From Lysinibacillus fusiformis (GTDB taxonomy: Bacteria; Bacillota; Bacilli; Bacillales_A; Planococcaceae), in contig NZ_PDFK01000003.1 of the NCBI RefSeq assembly GCF_002845985.1, positions 434,001 to 498,000 of the forward strand: a DNA stretch of 64,000 nt, in the 5' to 3' direction. Shown piece by piece: positions 4,912 through 21,009 of the stretch. Each line of letters begins with the position of its first letter. The first letter of the stretch is position 1. A program made the position numbers and the translations under genes. The notes beneath the pieces are model-generated. The model ran no database searches, had not been told where the DNA came from, and saw only the letters and a list, made by a program, of their open reading frames with translations.

Positions 4912-5454
4912 TTATAACGGGCGTTGTTCCCAAGGCTGTAGCGTGCCAACGATATTGATAGATCGATCATGCTGAATAGCATCGATGACTCCTTGTGAAA
5001 TTTCCTTATGTGTAAGCCATCTTGACTGACCGTTTTCCATTATGAAACCTAGCTGGACTTGACGATAGTGAGTGATCTCAAGTAGATGGATTTTATCTTT
5101 GATTTCATTTAGATTAGCGCTGCTGCCTAATACATGAAACAGCTTCCATATTCCTGAAATTTCACTAGCTATGCTCTCTAATACAGTTTCAGCATAGGAG
5201 TGAATCCAAGCAATGACCAATTCAATGGGTCCATTATGCGCTATCGTTTCTTCTAGCTTCTCTTTTAATAAGGCTATATCAAGATAATCAACTAAAATTG
5301 GTGTGACACGTGATGGATTTGATGATTTACTTATGAAACATTCCATTCGATTGGCATTACGTCCAATTACCGAAACGTCATATCCGTTCTTCACTAACCA
5401 AAGGGTTGTATCAGCTAACATTCCTGTCCCACCAATAACTAATGCGTGTGCCAT
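4912..5454 (-). CDS. Short NAD(P)-binding dehydrogenase-like protein
   Basis: A 180-residue Rossmann-fold protein starting with the nucleotide-binding loop ALVIGGTGMLADTTLWL, then a second strand ending VSVIGRNANRM, which suggests NADP preference. It is shorter than classical SDRs and lacks a clear YxxxK catalytic pair, so it may be an atypical reductase or a binding protein. It follows the acyl-CoA ligase gene by 48 bp on the same strand with a modest Shine-Dalgarno (AGGAAC) and is followed by a strong terminator, so it is probably the last gene of the transporter-enzyme operon. Its substrate is unknown. Confidence 0.7.
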   Translation of the reverse strand: MAHALVIGGTGMLADTTLWLVKNGYDVSVIGRNANRMECFISKSSNPSRVTPILVDYLDIALLKEKLEETIAHNGPIELVIAWIHSYAETVLESIASEISGIWKLFHVLGSSANLNEIKDKIHLLEITHYRQVQLGFIMENGQSRWLTHKEISQGVIDAIQHDRSINIVGTLQPWEQRPL

Positions 5455-5502
5455 TCATTTGTTCCTCACTTTTAATTCTTATTTAAGAGAGACTCATCAT
5501 AC

Positions 5503-6975
5503 TTAGCAGGTGGAATCGACTAGCCTATGCAATGCCTTTTTATCAATTTTACCAACACTTGTTTTCGGTAGTTGGTCTAAAAAAATGATTTGTTTCGGAA
5601 TCTTATAACGTCCTAATTGTTGATGACACAGTTCGTTAAGTTCATCTAAGATAGTCGCTACTTGATGACAACAAACAATAAATGCGGTTACAATCTCACC
5701 CCAATAATCGTCTGCTACCCCAATCACGGCAACCTCCTGTACGTCTGGATGCTGCAGCATACATTGCTCCACTTCCTGAGGGTAGACATTTTCACCACCG
5801 GAGATAATCATCTCTTTTCTACGACCGACGATATAAAAATCACCATCCTCATCCATCGTCGCCAAATCACCTGTTTTTAACCAGCCGTCTTGTAGGATAT
5901 TGGCGGTTTCTTGCTTGTTATTCCAATAAAAACGGAACATATGCTTACCTCTTACCAGAAGCTCGCCCACTTCACGAGGTGCACAGCTTTGCCCAGCTTG
6001 ATTAATGATTTTCGCTTCATTAAACTGCATGCTTTTCCCAACAGCCCCTTTTTTCGCGTAAGCATCTTCTCTCGCAATATAAAAGTTATTAGGTCCCGCC
6101 TCTGTTAAGCCATAGCCCTCCTTAAAGAATAACCCCTTTTTATGAAAGACATCATAAATGGGATGTGGGCATGGGGCACCGCCAGATAAAAATACGTTCA
6201 TCGAGGGGAAATGATTTTCTCGAAAGTATTCCGTAGCAATCATCGCTTGATACATCGTTGGGACAAAAAGGGAAATTGTCGTTTGATATTGATTCGTTGC
6301 CCGCAGTGCGGCTTCCGCTTCAAACTTATCGCCAATGATGACGGTTCCTCCCACCATAAGAAGAGGTATGCATAAAGCATTTAAGCCACCTGTATGAAAC
6401 ATCGGCATATAATTTAATGTCCGATCTTTCTCCTGTAAACCCCAGCTAATAATTGTATTGATTGCGTTCCAATTGACCGACTGAAAGGATAGCACAACAC
6501 CCTTTGGACGACCTGTTGTGCCTCCGGTATAAATCATTAGCCATGGATCATTCAAGTCCACGTCTTGCCTACTTGGTAGCGTTGCCTTCTCGTGCTTAAT
6601 GAGATGAAGTGGAAACATTTTTTCTACCACCAAAGAACAATGACTCTCTTCTTCATACAAGAGAATGGAAGGGGTCGCATCCTCCAAAATTTGTATTAAT
6701 TCCTCTCTACTTAATCGCCAGTTTAATGGCACATAAATAAGCCCTCGTAGCCCACAGGCAAATAAAATAGCAAAAAGTTGGATATGATTTCTCGCAAAAA
6801 CTGCGACTCTACTGCCTTTTTTTAGCTGCTGACGCTCGAAAAATTGACTCCATTTGCCGATTTCCTCTGATAATTGCTGATAGGTCCATTGCTCCTCTGA
6901 CGCTAGATTAATCAAGGCGATGTGATGAGGCGTTAAGGCGGCACGTTTTAAAATCCATTCTTGCTCAACAAACAT
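5503..6975 (-). CDS. Acyl-CoA synthetase (AMP-binding, ANL superfamily)
   Basis: A 490-residue class I adenylate-forming enzyme. The P-loop-like motif YTGGTTGRPKG is at residues 149-159, the A5-type motif with EGYGLTEAGP near residue 290, the TGD hinge (GWLKTGDLA) and GRRKEMIISGGENVYPQEVE near the C-terminal domain, and the catalytic lysine in SVGKIDKK (about K476). It should activate a carboxylic acid to its acyl-AMP and then CoA thioester; chain type cannot be read from sequence. It starts 13 bp after the FabG-like gene in an operon with a LIV-type importer, so its substrate is plausibly the imported acid or a product of it (inference). Confidence 0.9.
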   Translation of the reverse strand: MFVEQEWILKRAALTPHHIALINLASEEQWTYQQLSEEIGKWSQFFERQQLKKGSRVAVFARNHIQLFAILFACGLRGLIYVPLNWRLSREELIQILEDATPSILLYEEESHCSLVVEKMFPLHLIKHEKATLPSRQDVDLNDPWLMIYTGGTTGRPKGVVLSFQSVNWNAINTIISWGLQEKDRTLNYMPMFHTGGLNALCIPLLMVGGTVIIGDKFEAEAALRATNQYQTTISLFVPTMYQAMIATEYFRENHFPSMNVFLSGGAPCPHPIYDVFHKKGLFFKEGYGLTEAGPNNFYIAREDAYAKKGAVGKSMQFNEAKIINQAGQSCAPREVGELLVRGKHMFRFYWNNKQETANILQDGWLKTGDLATMDEDGDFYIVGRRKEMIISGGENVYPQEVEQCMLQHPDVQEVAVIGVADDYWGEIVTAFIVCCHQVATILDELNELCHQQLGRYKIPKQIIFLDQLPKTSVGKIDKKALHRLVDSTC

Positions 6976-6988
6976 CTTGACACCCCCA

Positions 6989-7720
6989 TCACATCATAAT
7001 GGCGCCATCTACATGAAGCGTATGACCATGAACATACGATGCCTCATCAGATGCTAAAAACAAATAGGCATTGGCTATATCCCGTGGGGTTCCTAAACGT
7101 TGTAACGGCACGATTGCCCGCATTTGAGCCAAAATATTTTCAGGCATCTTTTTGACCATAGCTGTTTCTGTAAAGCCAGGTGCCACTGCATTGACATTGA
7201 TGCCTTTACGCCCTAATTCCTTTGCCCATGTTTTGGTCATCCCTACAATGGCAGCTTTCGTCGCTGCATAATTCGTTTGACCAACATTGCCATAGACCCC
7301 ACTAACCGATGATGTATTAATGATTTTGCCACCTCCAGCTGCCACCATATGGGGAATGACCTCCTGTGTGCAATGAAAAACGCCTGTCAAATTGACATCT
7401 AACACCTGCTGAAATTGGTCATCTGTCATCTTTGTTAGCATTGCATCTCTTGTAATACCTGCATTATTCACTAAAATATCAATGCGTCCAGCCTGTTCGA
7501 TCACTGCTGTCACCAGCTGGTTAACACTCTCTCTACTTGCCACATCCACCTGTATAAATATAGCGTTTCCTCCTAATTGTTGAGCTGCGAGATTCCCTGC
7601 CTTCTCATCGAAATCAGCGATAAACACCCATGCCCCTTCTTCGATGAAACGCTCGGCAGCCGCATAGCCGATGCCATTGGCTGCACCTGTAATAATGGCT
7701 ACTTTATTGTTTAAACGCAT
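6989..7720 (-). CDS. FabG-like 3-oxoacyl reductase (classical SDR)
   Basis: Classical 243-residue SDR: the cofactor loop GAANGIG, the structural NNAG, a catalytic Ser in SSVSG and the Tyr-Lys pair in YAATKAA, ending with GHTLHVDGAIMM. It is closest in layout to FabG-type 3-oxoacyl reductases or 3-hydroxyacyl dehydrogenases. The frame is open to 7735, but that upstream ATG lies on the Shine-Dalgarno itself (GGAGGA); the ATG at 7720 has ideal spacing and is preferred. The start overlaps the end of the alpha/beta hydrolase gene by 17 bp, implying coupled translation within the operon. It probably acts on a keto or hydroxy intermediate made by its neighbours. Confidence 0.88.
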   Translation of the reverse strand: MRLNNKVAIITGAANGIGYAAAERFIEEGAWVFIADFDEKAGNLAAQQLGGNAIFIQVDVASRESVNQLVTAVIEQAGRIDILVNNAGITRDAMLTKMTDDQFQQVLDVNLTGVFHCTQEVIPHMVAAGGGKIINTSSVSGVYGNVGQTNYAATKAAIVGMTKTWAKELGRKGINVNAVAPGFTETAMVKKMPENILAQMRAIVPLQRLGTPRDIANAYLFLASDEASYVHGHTLHVDGAIMM

Positions 7721-8615
7721 ACTGTCTTCCTCCAATTTCTAAAAAAGCCTCGATTTCAGCTGTTAATTGTGCTAAATCATCCATCAATGGTGAATGCCCA
7801 CAATCTTTTAAGCTAACAAACTGTGCCGTTTTGCCTAAGTCTTGCAGTAATTCCGCATTCATTTCCTCTGTAATAACTAAGTCACGATCCCCTCTCAGTA
7901 CTAAAATCGGTATCTGGAGTAGGAGAGCTTCGTGTGACCCTTTTGTCACATCATTGTCAACAGCACTTATATTAAATGTATTGAGTGCATGATACACCTC
8001 TGCTAAGTTGCGCTGTGTTAGCATATCCTCTATATATTCTTGGTATTTTTCCTCGTTTGGTTGCTGATGGGTATAAATTAAAGCATTCCATATCGACCGT
8101 AAACCTTCGCCGTTTTTTGTGTCATAAAAGCCTTGGATAAGCTTGGTTTTAGATGTATCCACAAGTACATCTTCATAGTTATAGGCTCGCTTAAAGCAGG
8201 CTGGATCGCCTGTTCCTAAATCCGTATAAAATGGATAGCCACGTGTAGAAGCGGAGGCCAGTAAGATTAATTGCTGGCAATAACCTGGATAATTGGCTGC
8301 AAACTGCATACAAACAGCTCCGCCAGTTGACCAGCCAATCATGTCAAAGCTTTGCAATTGCATCGCATCCACAAATAGCTTAACATCATCACTAAAATCT
8401 TTAATGGTATAGATTGGCTGATGATAGGATGAACCTCCAAAGCCTCGTAAATCGATTGCATAGATGGTGTATTTATCATCTAAAGCATCTATCAGCACAT
8501 CCCAATGCTTAGAGGAAGTCATATTGCCATGAACCAACACTAAAGGATGACTTCCTCCAGCTCTTTTGCGATATGCCATCGTCTCACCATTTGCTAGTTG
8601 AATTGTTTGTAACAT
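7704..8615 (-). CDS. Alpha/beta hydrolase
   Basis: A 303-residue alpha/beta hydrolase with the oxyanion-loop HGNMTSS at about residue 29, the nucleophile elbow GWSTGG (Ser96), a likely acidic residue in RGDRDLV and the catalytic histidine in CGHSP (about H274). The Ser nucleophile points to esterase, thioesterase or C-C hydrolase chemistry rather than dehalogenase-like OleB chemistry, which uses Asp. It sits between the KASIII-like gene (12-bp gap) and the FabG-like gene (17-bp overlap), so it is firmly part of the operon and may release or cleave an acyl intermediate. Confidence 0.88.
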   Translation of the reverse strand: MLQTIQLANGETMAYRKRAGGSHPLVLVHGNMTSSKHWDVLIDALDDKYTIYAIDLRGFGGSSYHQPIYTIKDFSDDVKLFVDAMQLQSFDMIGWSTGGAVCMQFAANYPGYCQQLILLASASTRGYPFYTDLGTGDPACFKRAYNYEDVLVDTSKTKLIQGFYDTKNGEGLRSIWNALIYTHQQPNEEKYQEYIEDMLTQRNLAEVYHALNTFNISAVDNDVTKGSHEALLLQIPILVLRGDRDLVITEEMNAELLQDLGKTAQFVSLKDCGHSPLMDDLAQLTAEIEAFLEIGGRQYAFKQ

Positions 8616-8627
8616 ACCATTTCCCCC

Positions 8628-9632
8628 TTATCCCCAACGTATTGTGATAGCCCCCCAAACATAGCCAATGCCTGCACTCACTAGCGTCACAAGAGCACCT
8701 GCTTGAATACGATTTTGCTCCTGAGCTAGCTGTAAGGACAATATTTGATCGATTTGCCCAATATGTCCATAGTCTTGTAAGTAAATAGACTGTTCCTGCT
8801 GTAAGCCAAGCTCTGCTAAAATATAATCATGTGCAGACCTTTTCATATGCAGCATCGCTAAGTAGTCGAGCTGTTCTTCACTGTATCCACTTTTCGCTAG
8901 AGAACAGCGAATAACCTTCAAAAAATGGCTTAATGATTTTTGTTCTAACCTCTCCTTCATCCCAATCGGGTCCAAAACGTCAAGCTGATATAAATTTTCT
9001 GTTAAATGGAATGGTGTTAACGGTGTTTTCGTACCTCCAACTGGTACAACTACATCCTCTGAGAAAGAACCATCTGTTATAATTTCCGCCTCTAAAAGCT
9101 GATTTTTTTCATAGTTTTTTTGTAGCAATATGGCACCTCCACCAGCCGCCAAATTGTACATAAAGCGCGTTCGTGGATTGCTGTAATCGATAAAATCCAC
9201 ATTGCGATAGCCACCTGCTAAAAGAATGGTATGAATTGTGTCATCTGATGCCATTAAACTTTTCGCTACTTTCAATGCCATGATCGTCGTGCCACAGCGC
9301 AATTGCACATCAAATGCCCATGCATTAACCGCACCAAGCTCCTCTTGCATTTTGATGGAGGCTGTCCATAGTGGGTATTCCTTATGCTCTTCACCCATAT
9401 AGATGATCACATCAATATCTTTCGGGTCCAGATTTGCTTTTTTTATCGCATCCTGTGCTGCCCATATGCCCATTTGCACGGTATGATCATGCTCACCAGG
9501 GATTGGCTTTTCATGAATACCCATTTTTTGACGGATAATGTCCTCTGGAATATTTGAAAGAGCAGCAATGTCCTGCGAAGTCATTTTATTTTGAGGTAGA
9601 TAGATACCTGTACTGACAATACCAACAGTCAT
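8628..9632 (-). CDS. KASIII-like (thiolase-fold) condensing enzyme
   Basis: A 334-residue protein of the FabH/KASIII group. Cys113 sits in the expected nucleophile context (VQLRCGTTIMA), equivalent to Cys112 of E. coli FabH, and His262 (LAMLHMKR) matches the first active-site histidine. At the usual Asn position the sequence reads YGHIGQ, giving His290 instead, so it is probably not a standard fatty-acid initiator. Thiolase-fold relatives condense, cleave or transfer acyl groups on CoA or ACP. The start overlaps the livM stop by 4 bp (ATGA), tying it to the importer. Best guess: condensation or its reverse on the imported, CoA-activated acid. Confidence 0.85.
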   Translation of the reverse strand: MTVGIVSTGIYLPQNKMTSQDIAALSNIPEDIIRQKMGIHEKPIPGEHDHTVQMGIWAAQDAIKKANLDPKDIDVIIYMGEEHKEYPLWTASIKMQEELGAVNAWAFDVQLRCGTTIMALKVAKSLMASDDTIHTILLAGGYRNVDFIDYSNPRTRFMYNLAAGGGAILLQKNYEKNQLLEAEIITDGSFSEDVVVPVGGTKTPLTPFHLTENLYQLDVLDPIGMKERLEQKSLSHFLKVIRCSLAKSGYSEEQLDYLAMLHMKRSAHDYILAELGLQQEQSIYLQDYGHIGQIDQILSLQLAQEQNRIQAGALVTLVSAGIGYVWGAITIRWG

Positions 9633-10645
9633 TCAAATCGCTCCTTTTCCTGGGGCAGAGCTACGGGCTTTTTTCTTTGCTTTAGCTTTGCTCGCCATTT
9701 CCAAAACAGCAGTCTTAGTGAGCCAATAATACCTTTCGGGAAAAAGATAACGGCTAAAATATAGAGAATCCCAAAGAAGATAATCCAGCGTTCAAAAATA
9801 GGGTAATCTCGTGCTAGCCCTGATAATGCATGCTGTGCATATTCAATCACTGCTGCCCCTAGTAATGGCCCTACTAAAGTGCCGACTCCACCAATAATCG
9901 TCATTAATAGCGCATCGAGTGTAATATCCATCGCCATCACACTTGTGTTAACAAAGCGTAAAGAAATCGCATATAAGGAGCCTGCAAAGCTCGCAACAAT
10001 GCCTGCAACAACGGAGGCAACCACTTTATAGTGCAAGGTATTAAAGCCTAATGATTTCGTCCGTTGTTCATTTTCCCGAACAGCAATTAGTAGTCGACCT
10101 GTCGGCGAGTTAACAAAACGGTGGAGCGCTAAAAAGATGACAACTAAGCTTGCTAACACAAAGAAATAGAAGGTCATCCGATCTCTAAAAATATCTGGTG
10201 CTCGAAAAGTAAAGCCATCATTGCCATACGTGACAGAGCGCCACTTTTCAGCTACTACTAAAAATAACCCCGAGAAGGCTAGTGTGAGCATCGCAAAAAA
10301 ATGACTTTTCAAGCGCAAGGTTAATAAACCTACTAAAAAACTAACAAAGCCTGCTATTACCATGCCTATCACGATGGACAGCACAAAGATGAATAGTGTG
10401 TTCTCCATTTGCTTGAGCATGACTGCTGTCGTGTAAGCGCCAATACCAAAAAACATAGCGTGTCCAAAGGAAACGATTCCTGTATAACCGAGCAAAATAT
10501 CATAGCTCATCGCCAGTATGCCAAAAATGAAAATTTGTGTCAGTAAAATAAGCAGCGTCCTTGAATCATTGACAAAAGGGAGCACGATAAAAATCGCCAA
10601 TAACAGGAAAAAAGCGATAGAGCGTAAGGACATTTTCTTGTTCAT
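9629..10645 (-). CDS. livM: Branched-chain amino acid-type ABC permease LivM
   Basis: A 338-residue membrane protein of the LivM family: about nine hydrophobic spans, the motif YDILLGYTGIVSFGHAMFFGIGAY near residue 50, and the coupling helix with EQRTKSLGF in the cytoplasmic loop, followed by GGVGTLVGPLLGA. The LIV/HAAT class imports amino acids and also many aromatic or short carboxylic acids. It overlaps livH by 4 bp and the KASIII-like gene by 4 bp, so permease and enzymes are made from one transcript. The basic C-terminal tail is typical. Confidence 0.92.
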   Translation of the reverse strand: MNKKMSLRSIAFFLLLAIFIVLPFVNDSRTLLILLTQIFIFGILAMSYDILLGYTGIVSFGHAMFFGIGAYTTAVMLKQMENTLFIFVLSIVIGMVIAGFVSFLVGLLTLRLKSHFFAMLTLAFSGLFLVVAEKWRSVTYGNDGFTFRAPDIFRDRMTFYFFVLASLVVIFLALHRFVNSPTGRLLIAVRENEQRTKSLGFNTLHYKVVASVVAGIVASFAGSLYAISLRFVNTSVMAMDITLDALLMTIIGGVGTLVGPLLGAAVIEYAQHALSGLARDYPIFERWIIFFGILYILAVIFFPKGIIGSLRLLFWKWRAKLKQRKKPVALPQEKERFE

Positions 10646-11514
10646 GATGTTCGCTCCTTTCGCATCGTAAACAGCCCCTGTGGACGGAAAATTAAAACGA
10701 TGGCCATTAAAATCATATTGACTGCTAGTGACAGCACAGGCACATAATAAGCCATAAAGCTACCTGCTAGCCCTACTAAAATAGCAGCCAACAATGAGCC
10801 TGAAAAACTACCCATTCCGCCAATGACGACGACAATAAATCCTAAAATGGCGTACTCCATGCCCATCTCCGCATAGATGACGCCCGAATACGGAGCCATC
10901 AACATTCCACTAAGTGCCGCAAGAGCCGCACCCACCATAAAGACATATAGAAATACACGCTTAATATGAATACCAAGAGCCTGTGCCATTTCCTTATCCT
11001 GCACACCAGCTCGAACGATCAACCCAATCTTCGTGCGTTTCAGCATATATTGAAAAACACCAAAAATCACAAACCCTATAACAATAATAAATAGGCGATA
11101 TTTGATGATAATCACGTCACCAAATTCCCAGCTTCCCGCTAAATAGCTCGGCGTTTTCACGGCCACACCATTTGGACCAAAAATCACCTTGATGAATTCC
11201 TGCAAAACGAGCATAAGCCCTAACGTAATTAAAATTTGCTGAATATGATTGCCGTAAACAGGCGTAATAATCAATTTCTCTGTAAGCAGTCCAAGTAACG
11301 CGCCCGTCACAAGCGCACCTATAATTCCTACGATAAAGCTTTCTGTCCACATATAGGTAAAGATTCCCGCATAGGCTCCCCAAACAAATAATCCACCATG
11401 TGCAAAATTCAACACATCCATTAAGCCAAAAATTAACGTCAAACCTGCCGCCAGCAGAAAGATCAGCATCCCTGTTGCTAAGCCATTAATGAGTAAATTG
11501 ATGAAAAGCTCCAA
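10642..11514 (-). CDS. livH: Branched-chain amino acid-type ABC permease LivH
   Basis: A 290-residue permease with eight or so membrane spans; the family motif GLTLIFGLMDVLNFAHGG is near residue 25, and the cytoplasmic coupling loop has VQDKEMAQALGI, followed by IVVVIGGMGSFSGSLLA. It pairs with LivM to form the membrane channel of the importer. Its start follows livF by 15 bp, and its stop overlaps livM by 4 bp. Confidence 0.92.
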   Translation of the reverse strand: MELFINLLINGLATGMLIFLLAAGLTLIFGLMDVLNFAHGGLFVWGAYAGIFTYMWTESFIVGIIGALVTGALLGLLTEKLIITPVYGNHIQQILITLGLMLVLQEFIKVIFGPNGVAVKTPSYLAGSWEFGDVIIIKYRLFIIVIGFVIFGVFQYMLKRTKIGLIVRAGVQDKEMAQALGIHIKRVFLYVFMVGAALAALSGMLMAPYSGVIYAEMGMEYAILGFIVVVIGGMGSFSGSLLAAILVGLAGSFMAYYVPVLSLAVNMILMAIVLIFRPQGLFTMRKERTS

Positions 11515-11529
11515 TGATGGTCACCTCCT

Positions 11530-12237
11530 TTATCCAATTCCTAAATACTTGCGTTTTAGTTCTTCATTGACAATCAGATCCTCCATCATGCCCGAATTTA
11601 CTGTTTTGCCATCATCGATCAAAGTATAGGTATCACCAATCCGGCTTGCCATCATAAAGTTTTGTTCAACAAGAACAATGGACGTTTTCTTTTTCATTTC
11701 CATAATCGCTTCCATCACCTTCTCCACCACTATGGGCGCAAGCCCCTTGGAAGGCTCGTCAATTAATATTAATTGGCTATCATTGATAAAGGCTCTTGCC
11801 ATGGACAGCATTTGCTTTTGCCCTCCTGATAAATGCCCGCCAGCCTTTTTCCAAAACTTCTTCAAATCGGGAAACAGCTCCAGCACATATTGCTGTCGCT
11901 CTAACGTGGCAGTATCCTCCCTATACATGGCTACCTTCATATTTTCCTCTACCGTTAAATCTGCAAAAATCCCTTGATTTTCAGGCACATAACCTATCCC
12001 TAATTTAGCCACCTTGTATGTTGGGCTTTTTTTAATGGAGTGGGAGCGAAAGGCGATTTCGCCATTTGTCGCAGGTGTTAATCCCATAATTGTTTTCAAG
12101 GTCGTTGTTTTACCTGCACCATTTCGTCCAAGCAGTACGCTAACCTGTCCCTCCCTCGCTTCAAAATTAACTCCCTGCAAAATGTGATATTGGCCGATAT
12201 GCGTGTGAACCTCATTTAATGTCAGTAAGGTGGTCAT
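11530..12237 (-). CDS. livF: ABC transporter ATP-binding protein LivF
   Basis: A 235-residue ATPase with Walker A GRNGAGKTT, the LivF-type Q-loop region GYVPENQGIFADLTVEEN, signature motif LSGGQKQ, Walker B LILIDEPSKG and the switch histidine position occupied within VLVEQNF. Length and VEQNF ending are typical of LivF rather than LivG. It overlaps the end of livG by 26 bp and drives the LIV-type importer with LivG. Confidence 0.93.
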   Translation of the reverse strand: MTTLLTLNEVHTHIGQYHILQGVNFEAREGQVSVLLGRNGAGKTTTLKTIMGLTPATNGEIAFRSHSIKKSPTYKVAKLGIGYVPENQGIFADLTVEENMKVAMYREDTATLERQQYVLELFPDLKKFWKKAGGHLSGGQKQMLSMARAFINDSQLILIDEPSKGLAPIVVEKVMEAIMEMKKKTSIVLVEQNFMMASRIGDTYTLIDDGKTVNSGMMEDLIVNEELKRKYLGIG

Positions 12238-12988
12238 CGTACAGCCCTCCTAAATATGCTTGTTGTACGGTATCATTATTCATAATTTCCACGGGTGAAC
12301 CATCTGCTAGTAGCTGACCATTAAATAACACCATAATGGAATCCGATAAATCTAAAATCATATCCATTTTATGTTCAATGAGCAGAATGGTTTTATTCCC
12401 TTGATTTTTAATGGTCCGAATGACCTCTAAAATCGTAGGTACTTCCTCTAAAGACATACCAGCTGTTGGTTCATCGAGTAGCAGAATTTCCGTATCCAAC
12501 GCAAGTAGCATGGCAATCTCAAGCTTTCTTTTCTCCCCGTGTGATAGGATCGTTGTCAGGGCGTCCCGTTTATTGTCGAGTAAAACGAGTGATAATAGCT
12601 CCTCCGCTTTGTCGGTAATCGCCTTATAGCTTTTGTAGTGTCGAAATAGCTGATAACGAATCTTTTCCTTTGACTGCACGGCTAAACGAACATTTTCGAG
12701 AACCGTTAAATTTGGAAACACATTCGTGATTTGAAAGGATCGACCCAACCCCATACGTGTTCTTTCGATGGCCGACTTTTGGGCAAGTGATTGCCCTTTA
12801 AAATAAACATCACCCGCAGTTGGTTTTAGCTCTCCACTAATCAAATTAAAGAATGTTGTTTTCCCAGCACCGTTCGGCCCTATAATGGACTTTAAATGCT
12901 TTTCAGGCATTTGAAAATTAACGCAATCCACCGCCGTATGTCCCCCAAACTGAATCGTTAAATTGTCTGTGTGTAGTATTGGCTCCAT
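12212..12988 (-). CDS. livG: ABC transporter ATP-binding protein LivG
   Basis: A 258-residue ATPase: Walker A GPNGAGKTT, the LivG-type sequence GRSFQITNVFPNLTVLENV, an unusual signature LSHGEKR in place of LSGGQ, Walker B ILLLDEPTAGMS and the switch region LLIEHKMD. The LSxGE(K/Q)R form of the signature is common in LivG. The coding region begins 61 bp after the binding-protein gene, with a small hairpin between them, and overlaps livF. Confidence 0.93.
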   Translation of the reverse strand: MEPILHTDNLTIQFGGHTAVDCVNFQMPEKHLKSIIGPNGAGKTTFFNLISGELKPTAGDVYFKGQSLAQKSAIERTRMGLGRSFQITNVFPNLTVLENVRLAVQSKEKIRYQLFRHYKSYKAITDKAEELLSLVLLDNKRDALTTILSHGEKRKLEIAMLLALDTEILLLDEPTAGMSLEEVPTILEVIRTIKNQGNKTILLIEHKMDMILDLSDSIMVLFNGQLLADGSPVEIMNNDTVQQAYLGGLYDDHLTDIK

Positions 12989-13022
12989 CCTCTACTCCCT
13001 TCTCCTCTAATAGTTATGTAGA

Positions 13023-13041
13023 AAGACAGCCATGCTGCCTC
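13023..13041 (-). promoter_or_regulatory. Intercistronic hairpin after the binding-protein gene
   Basis: On the minus-strand RNA, GAGGCAGC and GCUGUCUU can form an 8-bp stem (two or three G-U pairs) around a 3-base loop. It lies between the binding-protein gene and livG. Such hairpins often protect or thin out the message so the binding protein is made in excess; that role is inferred. Confidence 0.45.
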
Positions 13042-13049
13042 TCATTTGT

Positions 13050-14288
13050 TTAATTCATAACAGGTGGTGCTGTTTCCTCAGGACTTAACTCCCGAATAAG
13101 TACGGGTACTGGATAATCCACGCCATCCTGTTGCTCTAAGCGAATTGAATACATCGATTGAAGGGCTTGATGGTCCTCTTCACGGAACGTCATCGTACCT
13201 TTTGGTGTCTCAAATGACATCCCCTCCATTATGCCGATCAGCTTGTTGGCATCTGCATCTCCCTCCGATTTTTTCAATGCCTCCATAATGGCAATCGCCG
13301 CAGACATGCCGCCAGGTGTAAATAAGTCAGGTACTTTATTGAAACGTTTTTGATGTTCCTCAACTAACCATTTATTTACATCATTTTGCGGTAGTGTGTG
13401 GTAATACACCGAAAAACCTTCCATACCAACCAATGGATTCATAAATTGAAGCGCTATAATATCAGGTGCTCCCGTTGAAATTTTAATGCCCTTTTCTTGA
13501 ATTTTAAGATCTGCGATTTGATTCCATGGTGAATTTGCTCCTGCCCAGACAACGAATAAATAATCAGGCTTAGCATCTAGCACCTTTTGTAAATTAGACG
13601 TAAAGTCTGTTGCTGCTGGGTCTGCATACTCATCTAACACAATGTCAGCACCTAATTTCTCCGCTGCCGTTTTAAACGCATTCACCCCATCCCAGCCAAA
13701 CGAGTAATCTGGGGCAAATGTAGCAATCTTCACACCTTTACTAGCAATAGCCGCCGCGGCTGCATAGGCATCCTGTGATGAATTACGACCTGTACGGAAA
13801 ATATACTCATTAAACTCAGAACCTGTAATACTGTCAGCCACCGCAGGCTCCACCACCATAATTTTTTCATACTCCTCCGCCAGCGGTAGAACAGCAAGGG
13901 TATCACCAGAACTTGAAGAACCTACTAAAAAATCAACCTGGTCATCTTCTAATAGCTTTGTTGCTTTCTGCACGGCCACCTCCGGCTTCGTCTCCGTATC
14001 CTCATACACAACCTCGATTTTCTTACCATTGACCTCCATCGTCCCACCAGTCGCATACTCAATCCCTAAATCAAATCCCCGCTGCGTCTGCTTCCCATAT
14101 GATTCAAGCGCCCCCGTTAACGAAGCAAGCACCCCAATCTTAATCGTGCCTCCTTCCGCCGTCACCGCTTTTGTCTCACCATCGGAGGAATCTGCATCTG
14201 TTGCATCATCCTTCGTATCCTCCCCACTACAAGCTACCAACACCACAGCCAACATTACTAAAAGAAACCAATACCACCGCTTCTTCAT
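13050..14288 (-). CDS. LIV/HAAT-type ABC substrate-binding lipoprotein
   Basis: A 412-residue Peripla_BP_6-type binding protein. It starts with a lipoprotein signal (MKKRWYWFLL..., lipobox VLVAC, Cys20), then an acidic linker, then TIKIGVLASLTGALESYGKQ typical of LivJ/LivK relatives, and a middle region VGSSSSGDTLAVLPLAEEY that lines the ligand site in this family. It is the first gene of the operon, after a GGGGGG Shine-Dalgarno. It resembles the versions used for aromatic and other carboxylic acids more than true leucine binders (impression only), and the genes downstream, which look catabolic, support a non-amino-acid ligand. Confidence 0.9.
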   Translation of the reverse strand: MKKRWYWFLLVMLAVVLVACSGEDTKDDATDADSSDGETKAVTAEGGTIKIGVLASLTGALESYGKQTQRGFDLGIEYATGGTMEVNGKKIEVVYEDTETKPEVAVQKATKLLEDDQVDFLVGSSSSGDTLAVLPLAEEYEKIMVVEPAVADSITGSEFNEYIFRTGRNSSQDAYAAAAAIASKGVKIATFAPDYSFGWDGVNAFKTAAEKLGADIVLDEYADPAATDFTSNLQKVLDAKPDYLFVVWAGANSPWNQIADLKIQEKGIKISTGAPDIIALQFMNPLVGMEGFSVYYHTLPQNDVNKWLVEEHQKRFNKVPDLFTPGGMSAAIAIMEALKKSEGDADANKLIGIMEGMSFETPKGTMTFREEDHQALQSMYSIRLEQQDGVDYPVPVLIRELSPEETAPPVMN

Positions 14289-14317
14289 CCTATACCCCCC
14301 TTTAAAATAAGCTCCAT

Positions 14318-14331
14318 AGAAAGCGCTTTCT
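14318..14331 (-). promoter_or_regulatory. CcpA (cre)-like palindrome
   Basis: Perfect 14-bp palindrome AGAAAGCGCTTTCT in the leader between the likely transcription start and the binding-protein ATG. The AAAGCGCTTT core matches the catabolite-responsive element; the outer bases (AG...CT rather than TG...CA) deviate. Position downstream of the promoter fits a repressing cre. Confidence 0.65.
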
Positions 14332-14343
14332 TGCTATGACAAC

Positions 14344-14378
14344 ACTATACAAAAGTCCAGTTACAAATTAGTTACAAA
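14344..14378 (-). promoter_or_regulatory. Operon promoter with SARP-like direct repeats
   Basis: On the minus strand two copies of TTTGTAACT (complement of 14370-14378 and 14359-14367) lie exactly 11 bp apart, start to start, where the -35 box should be. Nine bases after the second copy is a good -10, TATAGT (complement of 14344-14349); a normal -35 is missing. Direct repeats at 11-bp spacing ending about 8 bp before the -10 are the known layout of SARP-activated promoters. The SARP/BTAD-type regulator encoded upstream at 15337-18522 is the natural activator (inference). Confidence 0.65.
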
Positions 14379-14410
14379 AAATGCTTTGCACAAAAGTACA
14401 AAGCATTTTT
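14377..14410 (-). terminator. Intrinsic terminator upstream of the operon promoter
   Basis: Perfect 12-bp stem AAAAATGCTTTG / CAAAGCATTTTT with a 10-base loop; on the minus strand its T run merges into the first SARP-like repeat. It stops transcription coming from the acetyltransferase gene and insulates the operon promoter. Confidence 0.8.
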
Positions 14411-14497
14411 CTGTATCGATGTTATGGAATTATTTATTAAAAATTTAAAAGTGTTAAAAGATTTATCGCTACGCTACTAATTACATCAGGTAAAAAG

Positions 14498-14535
14498 AAA
14501 GACAAAAACGTTGAATATACAACATTTTTGTCTTT
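14498..14535. terminator. Intrinsic terminator after the acetyltransferase gene
   Basis: Stem AAAGACAAAAACGTTG / CAACATTTTTGTCTTT (one mismatch), about 50 bp past the acetyltransferase stop codon, with T-rich flanks on both strands. Confidence 0.75.
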
Positions 14536-14585
14536 TGTATTAGGAACTATTTTTTAGTGTTTCAAACTGCATTCTGTAGTACGCT

Positions 14586-15119
14586 TCATGAAGACCATTC
14601 CTGCTTCAATACACTATACAAGAAGGAATCTCGCCAAATACCGTCTTTCATTAACATATTTTCACGTAATATTCCTTCTTTGGCCATTCCAACCTTTTCT
14701 AAAACCTTTGATGATCCAATGTTTCTTGGGTCACATGTTGCATAAATACGATGGAGCTTTAATGTGTCAAAACCGAAAGTGATCACTAATTTAGCACTCT
14801 GCGTTGCTACTCCCTTCCCCCAATAGTCAGGGTTAACAATATAGCCAATTTCCCCCACCTTATTCGTGAAATCCCTAATCATTATCTCAACCGAACCTAT
14901 TAAAGTTTCTTGATAAATAATAGCAAAAACATATCTTTCCCTTGGTGTTTGTCTTGCTTCATCGAGTGCATCCTGAATGAATTCTTTTGAATCCTCCTCT
15001 GTATTCGGTCCCCATGTTTGATACCTACAAACAATCTCCTGTGAGGCATATTTATGAACATCAATCCAGTCATGTGGCGTGAATTCCCTTAAAAATAATT
15101 TTTCATTTGCAAGTATCAC
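14586..15119 (-). CDS. GNAT acetyltransferase, RimJ/RimL type
   Basis: A 177-residue GNAT protein: LFLREFTPHDWIDVHKY at the start, the acetyl-CoA loop IGYIVNPDYWGKGVATQSAKL, and RNIGSSKVLEKVGMAKEGILRE near the end, as in ribosomal-protein or small-molecule N-acetyltransferases of the RimJ/RimL class. The start is GTG, 10 bp after AAGGAGAG. It lies between the large regulator and the operon it probably controls, but is closed off by two terminators, so it is likely transcribed separately or as read-through from the regulator. Substrate unknown. Confidence 0.85.
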   Translation of the reverse strand: MILANEKLFLREFTPHDWIDVHKYASQEIVCRYQTWGPNTEEDSKEFIQDALDEARQTPRERYVFAIIYQETLIGSVEIMIRDFTNKVGEIGYIVNPDYWGKGVATQSAKLVITFGFDTLKLHRIYATCDPRNIGSSKVLEKVGMAKEGILRENMLMKDGIWRDSFLYSVLKQEWSS

Positions 15120-15336
15120 TTTAATTCATCTCTCCTTCTACACGATTCAACCATTCACTCATCTTGTTCAATCTGCAAATTGTGGCCAGCCTTTTATTTG
15201 TCTGACAAAATGGCATTTAAATATGTTGCTTTTTTTAACTTGTTCATATAGTTCATTTCTACTTATGAGTGGCTCTCCCTACACTACAAAGTAGTACCAC
15301 CCGAATAAGATTCCCTCATTTAAACGACGGCACTAG

Positions 15337-18300
15337 CTATCCCATAATTAAATCATAGACAGCCATGGTCGACTCCATAGGGGTTGTATTTAATTCGCTC
15401 TGTAACTGCTGTACACATTTTTCGTACCATTTGTATGCTAGAGAACGGTTTTGGAGTTGGTAGTAGCTGTACATAAGCAGGCGATAGCCCTCCTCCCATA
15501 GTGCATCCTCTCCAATTATTTTCTCTGCATAGTGGATGGCTTTTTTATATTGCTGCTGCCTTGTGGCATTTTGTGCCAAACGTTCTAGAACTTCTATATA
15601 TAAAAATTGTAGCTTTTCGCGATCTTGAGTAAGCCAGTCGATTTGCTTTTTTTCTGCATATAAGGCGTCTGGATAACTCGCTTCCGCTAACAGTAGCCAT
15701 TCATCGGACAACTGTGGATCAAATTCCTCCATTCCTAGGTTGTAATAATAGTGAAATCGTTCCACGTCAATTTGGAGAAAGGCAATATTTTGCAACTGAT
15801 ACATATTATTCTTACGTTGAATAAAAAAGCTCTCCTGCCTTGCATGTCGTTGTGGCTCCAACACTTTTAATAATGTATTTAAGACCACTTTAAAATCCCG
15901 ATCTAAAGACTCGACAGTGCGGTCTGGCCATAATGCCTGCGCTATTTCTTCCTTTGGTGTAAAACGATTGCGATGACAATATAGATACACGAACAATTCC
16001 TTCGATTTATCACGTTGCCATTCTTTATCTTCGAGCTTTCTTTGTGCTCGAATTAAACTTAAACTCCCAAAAAGATTGATTTGTATTGCATCATGCGGAT
16101 AATTGATACTGTCCTCCACTTGAAAATAGCTTCGTAATGTAAGAATGGCTGCATGTTCCACACCTCCTGTTTGGCTAAAATGCAATAGCTCATAGAAAAT
16201 CATTCGATCACTTGGACCAAGTATCATTTTCCTTTGTAAAAAATAGTCATAGCCATTTGCCAAACATAATTGCGCAAACTGTTGAAAATACGGATGAAAT
16301 TGGTCTCTATTATTTTCTTGAAACGCGATAACGGATTGATAGAATAGAACATGCATCAAGCCATTGCGATCTCCGCATTCCTGAAATAGTTGTTGTGCCT
16401 TCCTTACTAATTGCTTCGCTCGTTCTGTTTCTTGCTGGGAGAGAATGATTTTCACTTCCGCTAAAAGAATGAGGCCTGTCATCCAAGCATCTTGTACTTG
16501 CTCGGTTTCTCGTAAGCCCAATGCCAAGTATTTCTTAGCCGCTACTATATCTCCTAAATAATGTTTAGCAATCGCTAGCCCCATATAAGGTTCGGCCTTA
16601 ACTCGAGAAATATTAATGGCATTCAATAAAGTCAACGCTTTTTCATAGGCTTGACATGCCCCTTGATAATCTGGGAAATCCATTAATAGTAGCGCATGTG
16701 CTTTTCTGATATAACCAACCGCCTCTATAAAAATAGACTTCTCTCTTAACCCCCTGCGTATCCCATGCTGGGCTGCATACCAAGCTTCCTTTCCTTGTCC
16801 TAACAATGCATAGACAAATGCTGCTAGTAGTTCACTTTCACGATGGGTTGCCACAAGCTGAGGTGGCAATTCAAGGCGCTGTGCTAATAATTCCTTCGCC
16901 TCTCGTAATTGCCCAGTCCGTAGTAAAACTCGGACATCCACATTCGCTCGTTGCATGACATCCGCTGGCAATGCCACGTCCTCCATAAATAACTGTGCAC
17001 CCTTGGCCTTCCCTAAGTTCACTAAGTTTTCAGCATATTGCCGTTGAAGTTCTAATAATTCCTCTTTTAGTAAGGGGGTATATTTGGCAAGCTCTAATGC
17101 TTTTTCTAAATAAGGCTCTGCTAATGCAGGCTGTATAGTGTCTAAGTAAATATGTGCCAAACCTGCTTGAGATTTTGTCATAAATAGGTGATCCTGCTGC
17201 TGCTGTGCGATCATTGCACACTTGTCGTAGGATTGTTTCGCCCTTTCATAATAAGCACGGTAGCGATGGCATTCGCCATCAAAATAATATAATCTATAAA
17301 ATGTATCTTTTTCTTGTACAGTAAATCGATTGATTTTTTCTAATAACCATTCAAATTGTCCAGCACGTACTAATGGCTCTGCATGACGCTGTAATAGCTC
17401 TCCACAAAAATCATGGTCATTCGTTTTAAAGGCATGATAAAGCACAGCTTGAATATTATGCCGTTCCATATAATAGAATGCCGCTTGTTTATGAAGGTCC
17501 GTATAGCAACTTGTATGCTGACGCCATTTCATTTCTAAAAACCGACTAAACAAAGCATGGAAGCGGTATAAACCATCTGTTGTCACTGGTTGAATAAATA
17601 AATGACGCTGTGATAAAGTATTCAACATTTGTGCCATCTCAAAGCCATAAAAATCTTCCAATAGCTCCGCTGAAAATGTAGGAAAAATAGCTAGTTTTAA
17701 AATGGTCTCTTGCTCCGTTGCAGTCATCCTACTATAAACCTCTTCTGACAAATAGGTGAAAAGATCATTCGGAGAAATCATTAGCCAATAATCTAAAGAA
17801 ACATGATGCCATTGCTCTGCTAACAAGGAAAGACTGATGGCCCAGCCTTCTGTGATCTCCAATATCTTGGCCATTTCAGCATCGGATAAATGCACGTCTA
17901 CATATTCTTCAAAAAAAACAGCAATTTCCTCAGTTGAAAAGGCCAGCTCGTCCTCGTTGATCACTAGCCACTTCTTTTGCAGCTTTAATTTTCTCATAAT
18001 ATCCCAATTCGGTAATGTTCTAGATGCGATAATAAAATGAATCGCTGGTGGAGCAAATTCAATAACTTTCTCCATAAAATAATTAATTGAAAAGACGTGA
18101 TCCACTAAATGAAAATCATCAATGACAATTAGAAATGGCTCCTCTATGCTACATAGGCAATTGACAAAAAGCTTATACCAGCGATTCAGCTCCTCCATTT
18201 TAGGGAAGCGTGACAATTGATTCCACTCATCGAATGTAGGACCAAAATTCGGCACAGCTCGCTGTATGCTAAAAAAAAGATGTCTTAAAAAGGGTAATAA

Positions 18301-18522
18301 ATTATCATCTTCTTCGGAAATACTATACCAAGAAAATTTATTCGCTTCGTTCGAGAGAAATTGTGTGAGGATGGTCGTTTTACCATACCCTGCACCACTA
18401 TGAATAAATGTACAAGTATGGTGATGACTCTTCTTTAATGTCTTCATAAGTGCGGCTCTATTGATACAATGAGTGGATGGACTTGGTGCCATACATTTTG
18501 ATTGAATAATAATATCTGTCAT
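15337..18522 (-). CDS. Large STAND ATPase/SARP-type transcriptional activator
   Basis: About 1061 residues in the MalT-like layout: a P-loop GAGYGKTTILTQFL close to the N-terminus, Walker B FLIVIDDFHLVD, helical repeats (TPR-like, AEPYLEKALELAKY and many others) through the middle, then an OmpR-type winged helix (INLFGSLSLI ... LFVYLYCHRNRFTPKEEIAQ) and a C-terminal BTAD region with YPDALYAEK and ALWEEGYRLLMYSY. Such proteins are ligand- and ATP-gated activators. The frame opens at TTG 18540, but that codon carries the Shine-Dalgarno GGAGG, so ATG 18522 is preferred. Its likely target is the operon beginning at 14288, whose promoter has SARP-like repeats. Confidence 0.88.
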   Translation of the reverse strand: MTDIIIQSKCMAPSPSTHCINRAALMKTLKKSHHHTCTFIHSGAGYGKTTILTQFLSNEANKFSWYSISEEDDNLLPFLRHLFFSIQRAVPNFGPTFDEWNQLSRFPKMEELNRWYKLFVNCLCSIEEPFLIVIDDFHLVDHVFSINYFMEKVIEFAPPAIHFIIASRTLPNWDIMRKLKLQKKWLVINEDELAFSTEEIAVFFEEYVDVHLSDAEMAKILEITEGWAISLSLLAEQWHHVSLDYWLMISPNDLFTYLSEEVYSRMTATEQETILKLAIFPTFSAELLEDFYGFEMAQMLNTLSQRHLFIQPVTTDGLYRFHALFSRFLEMKWRQHTSCYTDLHKQAAFYYMERHNIQAVLYHAFKTNDHDFCGELLQRHAEPLVRAGQFEWLLEKINRFTVQEKDTFYRLYYFDGECHRYRAYYERAKQSYDKCAMIAQQQQDHLFMTKSQAGLAHIYLDTIQPALAEPYLEKALELAKYTPLLKEELLELQRQYAENLVNLGKAKGAQLFMEDVALPADVMQRANVDVRVLLRTGQLREAKELLAQRLELPPQLVATHRESELLAAFVYALLGQGKEAWYAAQHGIRRGLREKSIFIEAVGYIRKAHALLLMDFPDYQGACQAYEKALTLLNAINISRVKAEPYMGLAIAKHYLGDIVAAKKYLALGLRETEQVQDAWMTGLILLAEVKIILSQQETERAKQLVRKAQQLFQECGDRNGLMHVLFYQSVIAFQENNRDQFHPYFQQFAQLCLANGYDYFLQRKMILGPSDRMIFYELLHFSQTGGVEHAAILTLRSYFQVEDSINYPHDAIQINLFGSLSLIRAQRKLEDKEWQRDKSKELFVYLYCHRNRFTPKEEIAQALWPDRTVESLDRDFKVVLNTLLKVLEPQRHARQESFFIQRKNNMYQLQNIAFLQIDVERFHYYYNLGMEEFDPQLSDEWLLLAEASYPDALYAEKKQIDWLTQDREKLQFLYIEVLERLAQNATRQQQYKKAIHYAEKIIGEDALWEEGYRLLMYSYYQLQNRSLAYKWYEKCVQQLQSELNTTPMESTMAVYDLIMG

Positions 18523-18640
18523 GTTAACGATAACCTCCAAATTTGTGTAAGGTTACAATAGCTCCATTTTTTCACAAAAATTCAGATTATTAAATTATTG
18601 ACAGTTTACCATATTTTATCGAATGAATGGCAAAAATAAA

Positions 18641-18684: not shown

Positions 18685-19665
18685 TTATAGTAATTCTTTA
18701 CGTAATTCAGCAGCTGATTTTGGTGAAAGCAGACTGAATGGAATATCAAATACTGTTTTCGCTCCTTTATCACCAGCTTGACTTAGACGATGCGCAGCAC
18801 GTGCATAAGCCACTAATATACTAGATGTGAAGTTTGGATTACTTTCAAGTTTTAATGAGAATTCGAGAATTTGTTTATCGTTTGCTCCACTGTCACCACT
18901 GCGAATGACAAAACCACCATGTGGCATACCTGTGTGGTTTGCTGTAAATTCATCTTCAGAGATGAAGTTAACTGTTGTGTTATATTCATCGAAATAGTTA
19001 GGCATTGTGACAATTTCTTGTTCCACTTTTGCAGCATCTGCACCGTCTTCTAACACAACCCAACATTCACGTGCATGTTTTTCACGTGTTGTTAATTCAG
19101 GGTTTTCACCATTACGTACACGTTCTACAGCTTCTTTAATTGGCAATGTGTATTGAACAGCATTTTTAACACCTTCGATACGACGTACTGCATCTGAGTG
19201 ACCTTGACTTAAACCATCGCCCCAGAATGTATATGTTGTACCAACTGGTAATACGGATTCTCCTAGTAGACGATTTAAGGAGAATAAACCTGGATCCCAT
19301 CCAACTGAGATAACAGACACTTTACCAGATTTTTGTGCCGCTGCGTCTACAGCATCGAAAAATTCAGGAATTTTCGCATGTGTATCGAAGCTATCAATTG
19401 TATTAAACCATTGTGCAAAATGTGGTCCTTGTTCTGGTAAATCCGTTGCAGAGCCACCACATAAAATCATGACATCAATGTCGTTTTGGAATTTTTCGGC
19501 GTCATCTACTAAATATACGCTCGCATTGCTTGCTACGTTTACTGTTGAAGGATCACGACGTGTGAACACCGCTACTACTTCCATATCTGGATTTTGTGAA
19601 ATAGCATACTCCACACCACGTCCTAAATTTCCATATCCTACAATACCTACTCGAATTGCACTCAT
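18685..19665 (-). CDS. ddh: meso-Diaminopimelate D-dehydrogenase
   Basis: A 326-residue protein matching Ddh over its length: IRVGIVGYGNLGRGVEYAI (NADP site), LCGGSATDLPEQGP, SVGWDPGLFSLNRLLGE, TFWGDGLSQGHSDAVRRI and the C-terminal HTGMPHGGF region. It converts tetrahydrodipicolinate, ammonia and NADPH directly to meso-diaminopimelate, a shortcut in lysine and peptidoglycan-precursor synthesis. It is monocistronic, with AGGAGG before ATG and a terminator after. The 283-bp upstream region holds a GTGAAA-AC-TTTCAC palindrome. The gene is typical of Lysinibacillus, so it supports the taxonomic guess. Confidence 0.96.
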   Translation of the reverse strand: MSAIRVGIVGYGNLGRGVEYAISQNPDMEVVAVFTRRDPSTVNVASNASVYLVDDAEKFQNDIDVMILCGGSATDLPEQGPHFAQWFNTIDSFDTHAKIPEFFDAVDAAAQKSGKVSVISVGWDPGLFSLNRLLGESVLPVGTTYTFWGDGLSQGHSDAVRRIEGVKNAVQYTLPIKEAVERVRNGENPELTTREKHARECWVVLEDGADAAKVEQEIVTMPNYFDEYNTTVNFISEDEFTANHTGMPHGGFVIRSGDSGANDKQILEFSLKLESNPNFTSSILVAYARAAHRLSQAGDKGAKTVFDIPFSLLSPKSAAELRKELL

Positions 19666-19709: not shown

Positions 19710-19948
19710 GTTAAATCTAATTACAATAATACTTTGTGTTAGAAAAATTCACAATAGTTTGAGTATGAGTTTTTCAAAAAGAATTTATATCAGTTTTCTA
19801 TGGTTTTTATCCAAAAACGGTATGAATGCGGTTACAAATTACTAAATATTCCATGAATCTTAAAGTTATTGTAAAAGCCTTGTAAATAACGGCTATTTTT
19901 CCAACCAGTCTTGTACAATAAATGTAACGACAAAAGGGGGCATGTTGA

Positions 19949-20346: not shown

Positions 20347-21009
20347 CTATTGTATCTCCTGAGCCAACTGTGCAAGACGTTTTTCATCAATAATATGGTA
20401 GCCTGTCTTACGTTTTTCTAATATCTTCTCTTCACAAAACTGTGCCAATACATATAATAAATGGCGATAAGAAACCCCTAAATACTCACAGATTTCCGTA
20501 TGCTTTTCCTTATAGACACCTTGATCAGCAGATAATTGAATAAAGGCTGCTAAGCGATTCTCAAACGGATATGCTTGATTTTGTGTATATTTAGATGTCA
20601 TGTTCGTGGCTTTTTCCCCTAGAAACACACAAAGTCTACGTAAAAACAAGGCATCCACAAGTAACTTTTCCTTACATGCCTGTGTAATGGAGTAACAAAT
20701 TGTCTTGGTAACAGTTTGTATCCCCTTTGTATACCTCGCCTCATTAAGCAATTCAATTTCCCCCATAAAACGAGGAGCTTCCAAATATTCAATTAGTGAA
20801 ACCTTGCCATTTTTATGCGTCATATAGAGCTTCGCCTTGCCTTCTATCATGTAATACAATGTATCTGGAAAGGAGCCTTCCTGAAAAATCCACTCTCCTT
20901 TGTCAAATTGACACACTTCCAGATAAGGATCGATAGCAAATGAGAAAAAATCATTTATCGGATATTTTTCAAGATATTGGGTACGTGCTTCAGCTGTTAG
21001 AATATGCAT
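20347..21009 (-). CDS. yeiL: Crp/Fnr family regulator, YeiL-like
   Basis: A 220-residue Crp/Fnr protein: an N-terminal cyclic-nucleotide-type beta barrel (DKGEWIFQEGSFPDTLYYMIEGKAKL, then a helix containing FMGEIELL), a dimer helix, and a C-terminal HTH (HTEICEYLGVSYRHLLYVLAQF). Length and sequence resemble YeiL of enterobacteria, a regulator linked to nucleoside use and stationary phase; no Fnr-type N-terminal Cys cluster is present. It is divergent from an MFS transporter, with the palindrome TGAGATATCTCA (21035-21046) between them as a likely shared operator. Confidence 0.82.
   Translation of the reverse strand: MHILTAEARTQYLEKYPINDFFSFAIDPYLEVCQFDKGEWIFQEGSFPDTLYYMIEGKAKLYMTHKNGKVSLIEYLEAPRFMGEIELLNEARYTKGIQTVTKTICYSITQACKEKLLVDALFLRRLCVFLGEKATNMTSKYTQNQAYPFENRLAAFIQLSADQGVYKEKHTEICEYLGVSYRHLLYVLAQFCEEKILEKRKTGYHIIDEKRLAQLAQEIQ

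Follow-up and report, generated by a model that had tools for sequence, protein, structure and literature searches.

An operon of Lysinibacillus fusiformis that probably imports and degrades products of extracellular poly(3-hydroxybutyrate) breakdown

Gene content of the operon

The DNA analyzed here is a stretch of 64,000 nucleotides from Lysinibacillus fusiformis (contig NZ_PDFK01000003.1, positions 434,001 to 498,000; hereafter the window), taken from a genome of 4.58 Mb that is 99.97% complete. It carries an operon that probably imports and catabolizes the soluble products of extracellular poly(3-hydroxybutyrate) (PHB) breakdown, that is, oligomers or the monomer of (R)-3-hydroxybutyrate (3HB), under activation by a SARP-type regulator and repression by CcpA. 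Ten genes follow one another on the minus strand from position 14288 to 4912, encoding a substrate-binding protein (SBP), LivG, LivF, LivH, LivM, a KASIII-like enzyme, a hydrolase, a FabG-like enzyme, an acyl-coenzyme A (CoA) ligase and a short member of the short-chain dehydrogenases/reductases (short SDR); their families were assigned with Pfam and NCBIfam (Table 1). The distances between them are, in that order, 61, -26, 15, -4, -4, 12, -32, 13 and 48 bp, where negative values denote overlaps. The 32-bp overlap of the hydrolase and FabG-like genes hinges on a TTG start of the latter, and a downstream in-frame ATG makes it shorter. An earlier annotation made from the letters of the window (the original prediction) had regarded the genes as one unit, a reading that is supported. 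It had counted eleven minus-strand genes from a livK-like gene to a short dehydrogenase; the same-strand run stands, but comprises ten genes, or twelve when the GNAT acetyltransferase and regulator genes lying in the interval it covered are included.

The SBP, two BPD_transp_2 permeases and two ATP-binding cassette (ABC) ATPases form a five-part importer of the LIV/HAAT type, the parts of which score below the cut-offs of all LIV (branched-chain amino acid) and Urt (urea) models listed. The hydrolase belongs to the family of intracellular depolymerases of short-chain-length polyhydroxyalkanoates (scl-PHA; NF050089, 435.7 bits in the genome search). Its best solved relatives, 8ynv (269 bits) and 8ynw, carry the name poly(3-hydroxybutyrate) depolymerase, and the alignment with them extends across residues 3-293 of 303. 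The predicted lipase box reads GWSTG (GWSMG in 8ynv), and the regions of the presumed Asp and His also align with 8ynv. The ligase attains the cut-off of none of the 25 NCBIfam models shown for it, and no model assigns it a substrate.

The KASIII-like protein, whose best named match is from L. cavernae (94%), has the KASIII fold and a triad in which His290 occupies the column of the catalytic Asn and is invariant in 16 aligned members. Chain extension by this enzyme, as put forward in the original prediction, finds no backing, since the active site departs from that of KASIII in this Asn-to-His replacement and the gene context is degradative; a biosynthetic role was discarded on the same two grounds. 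A further KASIII-like paralogue, with 40-44% identity over the aligned part, occurs in L086-L090, L100, L142, L144, L152, L155, L169, L190 and L192 of the loci described below. It has NVSS(C/S)FP at the Cys column, is often accompanied by MaoC, a second ligase and a TetR regulator, and lies next to the SBP gene or ahead of the module.

Table 1. Positions of the operon genes, promoter elements and adjacent features in the window.
Feature	Position	Strand	Family evidence or remark
SBP, substrate-binding lipoprotein	13050..14288	-	Peripla_BP_6, 213.8 bits
LivG-type ATPase	12212..12988	-	Pfam and NCBIfam
LivF-type ATPase	11530..12237	-	Pfam and NCBIfam
LivH-type permease	10642..11514	-	Pfam and NCBIfam
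LivM-type permease	9629..10645	-	Pfam and NCBIfam
KASIII-like enzyme, Cys113-His262-His290	8628..9632	-	PRK06840 family, 522.2 bits, cut-off 315
Alpha/beta hydrolase of the intracellular scl-PHA depolymerase family; probable 3HB-oligomer hydrolase	7704..8615	-	NF050089, 436 bits, cut-off 300
FabG-like SDR; probable (R)-3-hydroxyacyl-CoA dehydrogenase	6989..7735	-	NF004198, 304.8 bits, cut-off 296; also above the cut-offs of NF005559 and NF009466
Acyl-CoA ligase	5503..6975	-	AMP-binding, 248.5 bits
Short SDR, PRK08309	4912..5454	-	NF006168, 222 bits
Operator, direct repeat TGTAACT-N4-TGTAACT	14359-14376	-	promoter comparison
-10 element TATAGT	14344-14349	-	
Cre-like palindrome GAAAGCGCTTTC	14319-14330	-	just 3' of the -10 element
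Terminator-like hairpin 3' of the GNAT gene	14535-14498	-	16-pair stem; terminator scan
GNAT acetyltransferase	14586..15119		between regulator and operon
Regulator, MalT-like ATPase/TPR protein with C-terminal BTAD, SARP-LAL-like	15337..18540	-	ATG at 18522 possible

Conservation of the module and its operator

The PRK06840 family is found above its cut-off in 86 of 200 genomes of the family and 38 of 398 genomes of the phylum, with a clear score gap beneath. We compared 140 loci, 60 of them hand-picked for diversity and 80 being the best of 590 confirmed; ten are duplicates, which leaves 130, and two (L173 and L209) contain no KASIII-like open reading frame (ORF) by the ORF caller used. Because selection was on the KASIII-like gene, the count of this gene is itself no evidence; moreover, some loci stop at contig edges, the ORF caller was a crude one and the genera are not independent. 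Among the 100 distinct loci with the SBP type of the window, livG is present in 97, livF in 85, livH in 98, livM in 93, the KASIII-like gene in 96, the hydrolase and FabG genes in 89 each, the ligase in 95 and the regulator in 90. Planococcaceae, Bacillaceae and their kin mostly have the order regulator-SBP-livGFHM-KASIII-like-hydrolase-FabG-ligase, and in Paenibacillus the ligase lies on the opposite side of the regulator. The operon is strongly conserved, and because the gene set recurs in 130 non-duplicate loci the run is not a product of chance. The original prediction had staked itself on the co-conservation of enzymes and importer in other genomes, and the comparison did not refute it on this point.

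More distant clusters retain part of the set. Of 20 such loci (L091-L110, of which 18 lie outside the class), 14 have a CoA-transferase of the butyryl-CoA:acetate type, 15 a livG-like gene, 12 FabG, eight the regulator, six a hydrolase of the window type and two the ligase. The clusters L091, L092, L102 and L106 have a member of the hydrolase family above its cut-off. The cluster of Thermoanaerobacter wiegelii (L195, like L092) encodes on one strand a sigma-54 activator, a MaoC hydratase, a LIV importer of another subtype, two hydrolases, two KASIII-like proteins, a CoA-transferase, a secreted lipase-like enzyme and a butyrate kinase. A plasmid search with the KASIII-like protein returned ten haloarchaeal records at 36-39% identity, and the same search with the hydrolase gave no match at E 1e-30. 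The plasmids of Salarchaeum and Halobaculum (L227, L228) display the order MaoC, hydrolase, ligase, helix-turn-helix protein, SBP, LIV, KASIII-like.

The upstream regions of the SBP genes have in common the repeat TGTAACT-N4-TGTAACT, followed after 6-9 nucleotides by a -10 element, and a T(A/T)NNNT element at this distance is present in 87 of 88 SBP promoters. The pattern TGTAAC-N5-TGTAAC stands 5' of the SBP gene in 81 of the 100 distinct loci and 5' of the ligase gene in 39 of 95; the 140 loci contain 139 copies of the operator pattern, versus none in each of five order-1 Markov surrogates. CcpA binds catabolite-responsive elements (cre), and 41 of the 88 promoters have a cre-like core, AnCGCTT, after the operator. 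The cre site of the original prediction survives in this weaker form: the strict consensus has a single match in the window (19823-19837; 1.5 expected by chance) and missed the palindrome GAAAGCGCTTTC past the -10 element of the SBP promoter, which was revealed by the promoter comparison. A promoter-scan match at 14457-14429 was not used; the scan performed near chance (46 versus 40.8 +/- 7.3).

The regulator has a BTAD domain (48.4 bits, cut-off 22.1), resembles MalT over residues 11-482 (205.6 bits, below the cut-off of 537) and has a putative winged helix at residues 846-898, where the match to Trans_reg_C is weak (13.9 against a cut-off of 26.2). SARP regulators sit near the -10 element, and the operator, with heptamer direct repeats, an 11-bp period and a position close to the -10 element, has the SARP-LAL layout; the regulator is the presumed ligand of the TGTAACT repeats. 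Heptamer direct repeats with four-nucleotide spacers and an 11-bp period are described for SARP-LAL operators in the accessible part of PMC5930380.

A search of 80 whole genomes for the operator TGTAACYNNNNTGTAACY, with the reversed pattern as control, gave 56 sites versus 16. By comparison with gene positions, 48 of the 56 sites lie at the module; the window genome has exactly one copy, and within the family the site is present in 38 of 45 carriers versus one of 20 non-carriers. Two of the eight off-module sites, each the sole off-module one in its genome (G129 and G117), are located directly upstream of genes that encode secreted enzymes and lie far from the module. TIGR01840 independently identified these genes, which encode Esterase_PHB proteins (124 and 127 bits), that of G129 matching PDB entry 8daj, 'Esterase, PHB depolymerase family', with 392 bits. 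An exact operator also precedes the linked Esterase_PHB gene of Tumebacillus (L167), and a one-mismatch operator that of Paenibacillus (L194). The six other off-module sites (G024, G144 twice, G109, G582 and G020; L262-L267) have no PHB link, and none of nine phaC loci has an exact operator.

Genes for secreted enzymes are also found within the clusters themselves. Esterase_PHB genes are present in L194, L098 and L167, and BLAST to the L194 protein adds L217 and L216; the fourth TIGR01840 gene, that of G588, is about 7 kb away from the KASIII-like gene. Six of 80 carriers have a member of a secreted lipase-like family (query from L097, E 1e-10), in every case within 10 kb of their KASIII-like gene, and in G588 (L269) the Esterase_PHB and lipase-like types are encoded side by side.

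Proposed pathway and alternative explanations

Read from the sequences, the gene set, its conservation, the operator and the same operator 5' of secreted PHB-depolymerase genes point to a route for which we infer the following order and direction. Secreted depolymerases would release 3HB monomers and short oligomers, these enzymes being the cell's own in some relatives and probably those of neighbours in the case of this Lysinibacillus; the accessible text of PMC11893044 gives monomers, dimers and trimers as depolymerase products. The SBP and the LIV-type ABC transporter would bind and import the monomers or oligomers, the PhaZ-family hydrolase would split oligomers to 3HB, and the ligase, replaced by a CoA-transferase in anaerobic relatives, would form the CoA esters. 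FabG enzymes handle the R-isomer, and the FabG-like enzyme would oxidize (R)-3HB-CoA to acetoacetyl-CoA, to be cleaved to acetyl-CoA. The MalT/SARP-type regulator would act on the TGTAACT repeats to turn the operon on, and the cre-like site is the probable point of repression by CcpA. MaoC, thiolase, CoA-transferase and butyrate kinase, the partners in various clusters, fit (R)-3HB chemistry. Import and processing, CoA activation, cleavage and catabolic control by a BTAD regulator and a cre-like site, all anticipated by the original prediction, are supported. It had stated that the substrate cannot be read from sequence; PHB breakdown products are now suggested by the family of the hydrolase, by the operator that secreted PHB depolymerases share and by the partners in the clusters, with 3HB oligomers or the monomer as the probable ligand of the importer.

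Several observations weigh against import of PHB breakdown products. The nearest solved chains of the SBP (3n0x, 363 bits) are unassigned R. palustris proteins, and the next ones, 4ey3 and kin, are presumably aromatic-acid binders. The exact operator is absent at the SBP gene in 19 of the 100 distinct loci, and the distant L104 and L108 have no adjacent LIV genes of the module type. G129 and G117 share a genus label, probably Psychrobacillus, and hence are not independent; a TIGR01840 depolymerase occurs in only four of 80 carriers, and a third unlinked gene of this kind (G037) lacks the operator even at one mismatch. Because the secreted lipase-like family is only weakly similar to PhaZ7 (E 4.8e-7) and ordinary lipases score higher, its members are at most putative PHB depolymerases. 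The window genome matches neither secreted type (best TIGR01840 score 20.5 against 107.85; no L097-type enzyme), and for this reason the organism probably lives on fragments made by others.

The same setting would accommodate a narrower or a broader cargo. The importer might carry (R)-3HB solely as the monomer, or a mixture of short 3-hydroxy acids that includes products of other polyesters, and the hydrolase would then act on another ester or a CoA ester. According to the available portion of PMC11893044, the monomer ranks among the main products of many depolymerases and the 8daj enzyme is active on other polyesters too, and the ligase, CoA-transferase and FabG suit monomers. Monomer-only import would, however, make an oligomer-type hydrolase superfluous, yet this gene is retained in most of the distinct loci with the same SBP type (89 of 100); we regard this version as a serious possibility that falls short of being probable. 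An amino-acid or aromatic-acid importer associated with enzymes for an unrelated acid is very unlikely. LIV-type transporters usually carry such compounds, and the solved relatives of the SBP agree with this, but the importer does not reach the cut-offs of the amino-acid and urea models, the partner enzymes scanned included none recognized as degrading aromatic compounds or amino acids, and the PHB links described above would be left aside.

The name of the hydrolase family suggests instead that the enzyme mobilizes the cell's own PHB granules, with the importer an unrelated companion. The member from B. thuringiensis reportedly acts on PHB granules. The title of a cited paper speaks of PHA production by a Lysinibacillus strain, which argues against a genus devoid of PHB, and stand-alone members of the family exist in genomes with PhaC. 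The family scores above its cut-off in 14 of 121 genomes of the class, and 13 regions were fetched from 11 of these. The KASIII-like gene and the importer adjoin the hydrolase in four regions (L214-L217), only a ligase, a regulator and a secreted enzyme are near it in one (L222), and in eight (L218-L221 and L223-L226, L220 being a 5.9-kb contig) no KASIII-like gene is present; these eight stem from six genomes, three with PhaC above the cut-off and three without. One hydrolase family thus appears in two settings, and the stand-alone type may have a granule role. For the operon, the PHB synthase model TIGR01836 has no match in the window genome, and therefore own granules are an unlikely substrate here. 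The model is above its cut-off in 12 of 80 KASIII-like carriers (19 with any match at E 0.001) and in none of the 15 Lysinibacillus genomes among them, and the operator occurs at secreted depolymerase genes but at none of the phaC loci. Mobilization of endogenous PHB was set aside for want of a PhaC match and is highly improbable; the substrate is probably exogenous.

The chemistry of the KASIII-like enzyme can be envisaged in two further ways. Replacement of a thiolase, with cleavage of acetoacetyl-CoA, is suggested by the thiolase-superfamily fold and by the lack of a thiolase gene in the window operon, but seven Bacilli loci (one typed by Pfam) have a true thiolase gene between FabG and the ligase and nonetheless keep the KASIII-like gene, which renders this role rather doubtful. 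Still bolder, and in our view unlikely, is a new Cys-His-His catalyst on the KASIII fold that would use CoA to cut the 3HB ester (thiolysis) and yield 3HB-CoA without ATP, joined with a dedicated ABC importer of PHB oligomers and a regulon across Bacillota, with haloarchaeal relatives, which would allow bacteria that neither make nor cut PHB to subsist on fragments that others release.

Bacterial uptake of PHB fragments is largely unknown and forms a gap between the well-studied secreted depolymerases and the equally well-studied catabolism of 3HB. The words 'uptake' and 'transport' are absent from the main text of PMC11893044 as far as it was available, and the accessible part of PMC7236355 holds nothing on such an operon. 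Searches of an open-access library on 3HB-oligomer transport, on LIV importers with PHB depolymerase and on Lysinibacillus with PHB brought up no such system, which is weak evidence, subscription papers and preprints being outside its scope. The present finding opens the binding protein, the operator and the gene set to direct test, offers a new reading of the 'intracellular PHB depolymerase' family in bacteria without PHB synthase, and raises the question of the chemistry of the KASIII-like enzyme. The operator is a possible DNA marker for bioplastic-degradation regulons.

Flanking genes and comparison with known systems

The short SDR is probably peripheral to the conserved module. It was found in seven of the 140 loci, one of these a duplicate, and was ruled out as a module member on this account; that a relative lies near one of the nine phaC loci (L270) was considered coincidental. 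The GNAT gene occurs only in some close relatives and is not a conserved part. It is probably transcribed, like the regulator gene, separately from the operon, because a terminator-like hairpin stands between it and the SBP promoter, in a scan that for the window as a whole was not above shuffles (9 sites versus 10.3). Downstream of the operon, a sodium/pantothenate symporter gene, PanF (2891-4336; 720.6 bits, cut-off 328), is also the neighbour in many Lysinibacillus loci. Elsewhere in the window lie a diaminopimelate dehydrogenase gene (18685-19665; 582.9 bits), upstream of which the single, chance-level strict cre match is located, a YeiL-type Crp-family regulator next to a 3-phenylpropionate-like transporter of the major facilitator superfamily (20347-22258; 251 against a cut-off of 259), and an ATP-dependent DNA ligase domain fused with a LigD primase-polymerase domain (58130-60019).

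The hydrolase resembles the intracellular PhaZ of B. thuringiensis (8ynv/8ynw) in its family, its full-length match and the lipase-box serine, but is set inside an importer operon in a genome with no PhaC match, whereas the family stands alone in eight of the 13 fetched regions; deletion of phaZ in B. thuringiensis left PHB degradation intact in most cells, according to the accessible text of PMC4908106. Unlike KASIII/FabH and BioZ, the KASIII-like enzyme has His for the triad Asn, with Lys264 and Ser266 invariant in the 16 aligned members, and scores 125.8 bits against the FabH model (cut-off 292). The importer has the composition of LIV/HAAT ABC importers and differs from the known ones in falling below the amino-acid and urea model cut-offs and in being tied to PHB-type enzymes. 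With the SARP-LAL regulator PimR, as presented in the available part of PMC5930380, the regulator shares a BTAD domain, a large ATPase and heptamer direct repeats with four-nucleotide spacers; in contrast to PimR, its presumed DNA-binding part is C-terminal, its repeat is TGTAACT rather than CGGCAAG, and it would control catabolism. The system finally resembles extracellular PHB degradation of the Esterase_PHB type (8daj), in that G129, G117 and L167 bear the same operator 5' of such genes and such genes are found in clusters, and departs from it in that the window genome is without such an enzyme by TIGR01840, while the operon adds uptake and catabolism.

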